DNA of 64,000 nt from the IMG/VR virus record IMGVR_UViG_3300042923_000319, positions 1-64,000 of that record. The stretch is one strand, 5' to 3'. Made by a program: the position numbers and the translations under genes. The number at the start of each line of letters is the position of its first letter. Position 1 is the first letter of the stretch. Below the pieces are notes generated by a model. It did no database searches. It was not told the origin of the DNA and saw only the letters and a program-made list of their open reading frames with translations. Of this stretch, positions 21,378 to 53,261 are shown in pieces. The stretch comes from a virus.

Positions 21378-21745
21378 AATTCACATTTACACTACTTTTG
21401 TGCCTCCTTAGTCCACACATCAGTGGACATTGGACACTACAGGACAACTCAGAAATTATGCAGGTCAAGCAAGAATATCGCGAGGTGTACGCTGAAACCA
21501 CAGGATATACATTGGGTGACGGTAATACACCAAGTACAATCATGGCAAACGGGGAGAAACCCCATAGCGGAGCAGTGGCTTACAATAGAGTACCACTGGG
21601 AACACGGTTGGAAATACAAGGAAAAATCTATGTAGTCAGTGATAGAGCAATGAATGATGACATTGTTGATATTTATATGGATAGCATTGAAGAATGCATG
21701 ATGTACGGTAGGAGAATACAGAAGATAAAAATATTGGAGGATTGA
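21374..21745 (+). CDS. 3D-domain protein (RlpA/Barwin-like fold)
   Basis: Ends with YVVSDRAMNDDIVDIYMDS, the three-Asp motif of 3D domains found in wall-active lytic enzymes and resuscitation factors. There is no ATG in the frame. A TTG at 21398 would cut a hydrophobic leader (FTFTLLLCLLS) that is kept if translation begins at the ATA at 21374, which overlaps the upstream TAG. Start therefore uncertain. Probably exported and acting on peptidoglycan. An 18-bp operator-like site lies inside the coding start (21411). Confidence 0.6.
   Translation: MEFTFTLLLCLLSPHISGHWTLQDNSEIMQVKQEYREVYAETTGYTLGDGNTPSTIMANGEKPHSGAVAYNRVPLGTRLEIQGKIYVVSDRAMNDDIVDIYMDSIEECMMYGRRIQKIKILED
21411..21428 (+). promoter_or_regulatory. 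operator-like site 6 (GTCCAC ACATCA GTGGAC)
   Basis: Copy located within the 5' coding part of the 3D-domain gene. Almost a perfect palindrome in its outer arms. No promoter visible. Confidence 0.55.
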
Positions 21746-21747
21746 CA

Positions 21748-22746
21748 ATGGAAATACTCAGAAACATCAAAGTACCAACAGGCAATATTTTAATTGTCAG
21801 TGGTGACAGGGGTAAACTCGAATGTGTTTCGTTGGGTGACTATGGAAAAGAGAATAATCTCAAAGCTGATTTTTTAGGATTAACTAAGGAAATCACCAAA
21901 GTTAAATCACAAAAAATAATGCCACTCACAGATAAATGGGTGATAACCGTTAGCACTCAATATGGTTGCTCAATGGGGTGTAAATTTTGTGATGTTCCAA
22001 AAGTTGGCGCAGGTATTAACGCAACATGCGATGATTTAAAACAACAGATTATCACAGGGTTATCAACGCATTCCAATATCAAATCAACGAAACGCTTAAA
22101 CGTTCATTATGCTCGTATGGGAGAACCAACGTGGAACTATAGTGTCATTGATTTTACATTATGGATGAAAGAAGAGCTTAAGCCATACATTGGTGACTCA
22201 TTAATTCATCCAGTAATATCAACAATGTTACCAAAGAACAATGCACTTCTTGAGCAGTATCTAAGAGATTGGATGGTAATAAAAAATGATACATTCAATG
22301 GTGATGCAGGACTACAGTTTTCAATCAATAGCACATCTGACGATGAGCGTGATGAAATGTTTAATGGTAACTCATGCAGTCTTGATGAGATTTCACGCAT
22401 CGGTAAAGCATTGAGATTCCCTAAAGGTCGTAAGATTACATTGAATTTTGCTATTGCTGGCTATGAAATCGACGCTGAAAAACTTCGCAAACTCTTTGAC
22501 CCTAAGAAATTCGTAGTAAAATTAACGCCTATGCATAAAACATCTTCAGCATTGCAGAACGACATCAAGACTGATGGTGACTACACAACATTTTACCCAT
22601 ACAGACACATTGAAGAACAATTGAAAACCGTTGGGTTTGATGTACTGGTATTCATTGCTTCTGACGATGAAGACCTGGGAAGAATCACATGTGGTAATGC
22701 AATATTGTCTGGTAGTGAACCATTGTGTGAATACGAGGAGGATTGA
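21748..22746 (+). CDS. radical SAM protein of the RlmN/Cfr type
   Basis: 332 aa, ATG 21748 with SD TTGGAGG. GCSMGCKFCDV (Cys at ~74, 78, 81) is the 4Fe-4S-SAM motif in RlmN/Cfr spacing. NVHYARMGEPTWNY corresponds to the MGMGEPLLNY motif, FSINSTSDDERD to the SLHAPND region, and ITCGNA near residue 314 holds the Cys that is methylated in RlmN/Cfr. Those enzymes methylate A2503 of 23S rRNA or A37 of some tRNAs. The N-terminal RNA-binding region is shorter than in RlmN, so the substrate may differ. Placed among small early genes. Confidence 0.75.
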   Translation: MEILRNIKVPTGNILIVSGDRGKLECVSLGDYGKENNLKADFLGLTKEITKVKSQKIMPLTDKWVITVSTQYGCSMGCKFCDVPKVGAGINATCDDLKQQIITGLSTHSNIKSTKRLNVHYARMGEPTWNYSVIDFTLWMKEELKPYIGDSLIHPVISTMLPKNNALLEQYLRDWMVIKNDTFNGDAGLQFSINSTSDDERDEMFNGNSCSLDEISRIGKALRFPKGRKITLNFAIAGYEIDAEKLRKLFDPKKFVVKLTPMHKTSSALQNDIKTDGDYTTFYPYRHIEEQLKTVGFDVLVFIASDDEDLGRITCGNAILSGSEPLCEYEED

Positions 22747-53110: not shown

Positions 53111-53185
53111 GATTCGATAGTTCAATGGTAGAACAGCGGTCTCCAAAACCGTTAGATCAAGGTTCAAATCCTTGTCGGATCGCCA
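53111..53185 (+). tRNA. tRNA-Trp (anticodon CCA)
   Basis: 7-bp acceptor stem GATTCGA/TCGGATC (one G-U), T arm with GGTTCAAATCC, anticodon loop TCTCCAAAA giving CCA, and an encoded 3' CCA. May compensate for Trp codon demand or host tRNA cleavage. Confidence 0.85.
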
Positions 53186-53187
53186 AT

Positions 53188-53261
53188 GCTTCCTTAGTTT
53201 AACGGTAGAACGAGGATTTTGTAAATCTTTAGCGATAGTTCAACTCTATCAGGAAGCTCCA
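53188..53261 (+). tRNA. tRNA-Thr (anticodon UGU)
   Basis: Acceptor GCTTCCT/AGGAAGC perfect, anticodon stem AGGAT/ATCTT with loop TTTGTAA (UGU), encoded CCA. Two bases after the tRNA-Trp, so co-transcribed. A different isoacceptor from the CGU tRNA whose 3' half forms attP. Confidence 0.85.

Follow-up and report, generated by a model that had tools for sequence, protein, structure and literature searches.

The stretch of DNA analysed here, called the window, represents 64 kb out of the 72.7 kb of a virus record, and the phage that carries the gene P0001 is described as a gut phage. Among the proteins encoded in the window are a phage integrase, the alpha subunit of DNA polymerase III, a DnaG-like primase, DnaB, a ribonucleotide reductase and a terminase; with this set of integrase, replication genes and terminase, the phage looks temperate. 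Tandem tRNA-Trp(CCA) and tRNA-Thr(TGT) genes are found at positions 53111-53261. The P0001 gene lies in the phage replication region, a short distance before the genes for primase and helicase. Read directly from the sequence, its open reading frame runs from an ATG at 21748 to a TGA stop codon at 22744-22746, as the preliminary description had placed it. The features of the locus are the following:

21736..21740, + strand: GGAGG, a Shine-Dalgarno-like site 7 nt before the ATG (read directly from the sequence)
21748..22746, + strand: radical SAM protein P0001, 332 aa, of the phrog_24834 family, RlmN/Cfr-related and in a separate clade
21748..21933, + strand: N-terminal segment, residues 1-62, with beta strands and the family signature GDYGK-N-KADFLGL (AF2 secondary structure, alignment)
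21946..21948, + strand: Thr67, at the position of RlmN Cys118 (resolving cysteine/general base), an invariant Thr in the family (alignment)
21967..21990, + strand: CxxxCxxC (C74, C78, C81), the [4Fe-4S]/SAM motif (sequence, alignment)
22114..22128, + strand: R123 and MGEP (124-127), the SAM-binding GEP motif (alignment)
22327..22329, + strand: Asn194, a His in RlmN and the other phage families (SLH to SIN; alignment)
22534..22536, + strand: His263, at the position of RlmN Asn312, invariant in the family (alignment)
22690..22698, + strand: C315-G-N, at the methyl-carrier Cys355 (CGQL) of RlmN (alignment)

Judged by profile similarity, P0001 is a member of the large phage and prophage family phrog_24834, which is annotated as being of unknown function (E value of 4.9e-133 over residues 1-331 of 332). 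Our scans recovered 80 loci of this family in viral contigs and 30 in bacterial genomes; carriage on plasmids was also looked for and gave no match. The only close relative in a named phage is that of Bacteroides phage Versailles (58%). One Oscillospiraceae contig, L095, harbours two copies about 7 kb apart (L095:1000-2100 and L095:8001-8957). In total, 84 distinct sequences were aligned, the others being 43-73% identical to P0001. The three cluster cysteines, the MGEP segment and C315-G-N are invariant throughout, and so, unexpectedly, is Thr67. Thus, the CxxxCxxC, MGEP and C-terminal CGN motifs that had been pointed out in P0001 are indeed present and are not there by chance. Arg123, which stands in place of a Gly of RlmN, is nearly invariant, and His263 occupies a column that we take to be Asn312 in the E. 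coli numbering of RlmN. The N-terminus had also been correctly described as short, since neither the alignment nor the AF2 secondary structure contains an RlmN-type N-terminal RNA-binding domain.

RlmN is the C2-methylase of A2503 in 23S rRNA and of A37 in tRNA, Cfr is the C8-methylase of A2503 in 23S rRNA, and both are textbook enzymes with two cysteines proven essential. The proposed kinship of P0001 with these enzymes was borne out by sequence, fold and tree. First, the RlmN model TIGR00048 matches 84/84 members of the family, and when solved structures were searched with the family profile, RlmN and Cfr structures ranked first. Second, the AF2 model of P0001 (pLDDT 93) has RlmN as its top Foldseek match (6fz6, 5.4e-10, TM about 0.62); other radical SAM folds reach 7e-5 at best. 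With RlmN (TIGR00048; PDB 3rf9, 5hr6 and 6fz6), P0001 has in common the radical SAM core, the CxxxCxxC and GEP motifs, the C-terminal carrier cysteine loop and the fold; with Cfr (TIGR04432; PDB 9p0p), it has in common the class A architecture and the carrier cysteine (C338 in Cfr). However, its scores of 35.7 bits against RlmN and 28.5 bits against Cfr lie far below the curated cut-offs of 290 and 550, and it differs from RlmN by the SLH to SIN and N312 to H263 changes, by Thr67 in place of the resolving cysteine, by the missing RNA-binding domain and by its acidic character. The median pI is 5.5 in the family against 8.5 in RlmN, although these are raw values, not corrected for phage composition, and as such weak evidence. 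On its sequence, P0001 is neither RlmN nor Cfr and should carry neither annotation.

Two other phage families help to place it. In trees that contained no reference Cfr sequence, P0001's family, phage families i and ii and cellular RlmN each form a group of their own, with P0001's family and family ii on one side and family i and RlmN on the other (support 100/91); a second tree was built without an outgroup, because the outgroup rows of the first were long-branched. The trees support the kinship with RlmN and give P0001's family, from which the second cysteine is absent, a clade of its own. Family i (Vibrio phage 496E54-1, Aeromonas phage Ahp1, Salmonella phage Arash, Stenotrophomonas phage ANB28) consists, like P0001's, of short RlmN relatives but, unlike it, keeps both catalytic cysteines and the CGQL motif and groups with RlmN. 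Family ii (Kehishuvirus tikkala, Moorella phage MTATph1, Yersinia phage P778, Pectobacterium phage Arno18) is the sister clade of P0001's family, with which it shares the Arg before MGEP and the loss of the C118 equivalent. Indeed, the C118 column holds Thr in 27/27 sequences of P0001's family, Gly in 18/18 of family ii, and Cys in 9/9 of family i and 12/12 RlmN sequences. This assignment is secure, as there are no gaps in the alignment around [VI]S-x-[QM]-x-G-C, and no second conserved cysteine replacing C118 was found in the 84-sequence alignment.

In contrast to P0001, family ii carries its carrier-cysteine tail on a separate small gene. At the roughly 50 loci considered, the core enzyme with the radical SAM fold ends before the carrier loop, and an ORF on the same strand, typically some 40 aa long but reaching about 100 aa, holds the motif IK.QLE..GYDYAVAIAT..EIE.GAACGQL.II. 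It usually lies 60-80 bases downstream in varying frames, at some loci beyond 1 kb or after the next gene. The only loci without it are L177 and L190/L250, the last two being the same contig. A pN/pS of 0.18 was obtained for it, against values above 1 in the other two frames; the detached tail is therefore under purifying selection, which argues that the carrier cysteine is catalytic. Where this GAACGQL gene is annotated, it is as hypothetical only (L116:3833-4755, L084:5833-6792, L281:3001-4345, L083:5824-7282, L151-L195). In Vibrio phage D479 (L115:4620-4901), the cysteine unit occurs twice in tandem within the carrier-cysteine gene. In the phage contigs L170, L176, L177 and L197, distinct radical SAM genes, two or three per contig and some of them QueE-like, lie within a few kilobases.

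What the loss of C118 entails can be gauged from the characterised enzymes. In RlmN, C355 carries the methyl group and C118 resolves the crosslink; C118 and its Cfr counterpart C105 are reported to be indispensable for this step, mutants fail to resolve the crosslink, and C118A RlmN remains covalently bound to the RNA (PMC9692996). By mechanism, class A radical SAM methylases are defined by two conserved non-cluster cysteines (PMC9692996), of which P0001's family has one. RNA methyl transfer through a methylated cysteine had been thought plausible for P0001. While the carrier cysteine C315 is indeed kept, the C118/C105 equivalent is replaced by Thr, so that this chemistry is not simply transferable to P0001, and the loss may point to a different one.

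Our favoured interpretation, which we hold with slightly better than even confidence, is that P0001 represents a subfamily, specific to phages, of the class A radical SAM methylases typified by RlmN and Cfr, with an altered resolution step and a nucleotide-type target. The genes found beside the family bear on what this target might be. All three phage RlmN-like families sometimes adjoin NAD-salvage genes (NAMPT, nicotinamidase, NadE). In several lineages of P0001's family, NAMPT/NAPRT, a nicotinamidase-like isochorismatase, NadE and an NrtR-like Nudix regulator adjoin the gene; at other loci, MetK, FMN reductase, RlaP, the CCA-adding enzyme or an ADP-ribosylglycohydrolase is nearby. A co-directional NAMPT gene lies within 5 kb at 16/112 loci of P0001's family, 12/45 of family ii and 1/10 of family i, and at a family-i Vibrio phage locus both a PRPP synthase and a NAMPT gene adjoin the RlmN-like gene. 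The gene order NMNAT, NAMPT, radical SAM core, mini-gene recurs in several family-ii lineages (L173:2471-5910, L176, L184, L191 and L194), NMNAT being assigned here from a sequence motif and not by profile search. In the reverse direction, 9 of 76 NAMPT loci proved to contain an RlmN-like gene, compared with 2 extra copies in the 2.05 Mb of other phage flank. The 76 loci are not independent, and three of them belong to contigs that the forward searches had already covered. This co-occurrence in both search directions is suggestive. Within the papers covered by our literature search, none deals with phage-encoded RlmN-like enzymes or with radical SAM genes beside NAMPT. The tRNA genes that were considered as partners of the family are scattered and inconsistent.

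These neighbours raise the possibility, unlikely in our view, that P0001 is an enzyme of the NAD pathway whose substrate is NAD+ or a precursor, modified at the adenine or at the pyridinium ring, altering the phage NAD pool or the defence signals derived from it. NAMPT neighbours in all three families and the outcome of the reverse search speak for it. However, within P0001's own family the NAMPT link is limited to 4/34 clusters (75% identity), and no NAD partner was found for the window's own clade: a similarity search of the 64 kb with NAMPT, NMNAT, nicotinamidase, NadE and NrtR queries detected none, and the search for a conserved partner gene of this clade returned only the replication helicase. 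The NAD-salvage neighbours could also form a general counter-defence island.

Two readings appear more doubtful still. It had been suggested that P0001 modifies host ribosomes or tRNA, although none of our results singles out either as the target, and it could in principle be an ordinary phage RlmN or Cfr that methylates A2503 of 23S rRNA or A37 of tRNA, with Thr or water replacing C118. RlmN and Cfr are its nearest characterised relatives, but the low model scores, the lost cysteine, the missing RNA-binding domain and the acidic family all argue against this, as does the presence of a normal RlmN in 12/12 host genomes tested; for this last reason, we also reject the idea that P0001 substitutes for a missing host enzyme. 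The further proposal of a tie to unusual start-codon use is unsupported; the P0001 gene itself opens with an ATG preceded by a ribosome-binding site. Similarly, the C-terminal cysteine may serve as a hydrogen-atom donor or substrate-binding residue in a non-methylating radical reaction, as in spore photoproduct lyase. This would be in keeping with the loss of C118, with the altered active-site columns nearby and with the fact that this lyase is a weak fold neighbour of P0001. Nonetheless, the CG tail of P0001 aligns with the carrier loop of RlmN, which is the best fold match by five orders of magnitude in E value. Finally, modification of a phage or host protein or peptide would fit a protein of acidic composition with no RNA-binding domain, but it is highly improbable, as no conserved peptide gene adjoins the family and peptide maturases resemble it only weakly.

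Altogether, P0001 most likely works, as far as homology can tell, by an RlmN-related transfer of a C1 unit from the carrier cysteine with an altered resolution, and phages with such genes probably carry out an altered version of the RlmN reaction. By analogy with RlmN, one SAM would methylate C315, and a second would provide the 5'-deoxyadenosyl radical that generates a C315-S-CH2 radical, which would then add to an electron-poor sp2 carbon of a base. The product would be released by another group, for which the invariant His263, the nearly invariant Arg123, Thr67 or a bound water are candidates; alternatively, the adduct would persist. The substrate is probably of a nucleotide type: host RNA is a quite conceivable target, a nucleotide of the NAD pathway or another free nucleotide a possible one, and anything else a rather doubtful one. 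A bolder proposal, to which we give little weight, is that of a phage clade of carrier-cysteine enzymes deprived of the resolving cysteine, one branch having its carrier cysteine on a separate, swappable "methyl-carrier protein"; the enzymes of this clade would act in NAD metabolism or leave on their target a lasting covalent adduct in place of a simple methyl group.

A large family found in nature in which one of the two cysteines is kept and the other is always absent, together with a sister family in which the remaining cysteine is moved to a protein of about 40 aa, would test how this chemistry is resolved. For the phages themselves, a role of P0001 in host takeover or counter-defence is likely. 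That such genes repeatedly adjoin NAD-salvage genes of phages suggests that they serve some purpose other than modifying ribosomes, possibly counter-defence.
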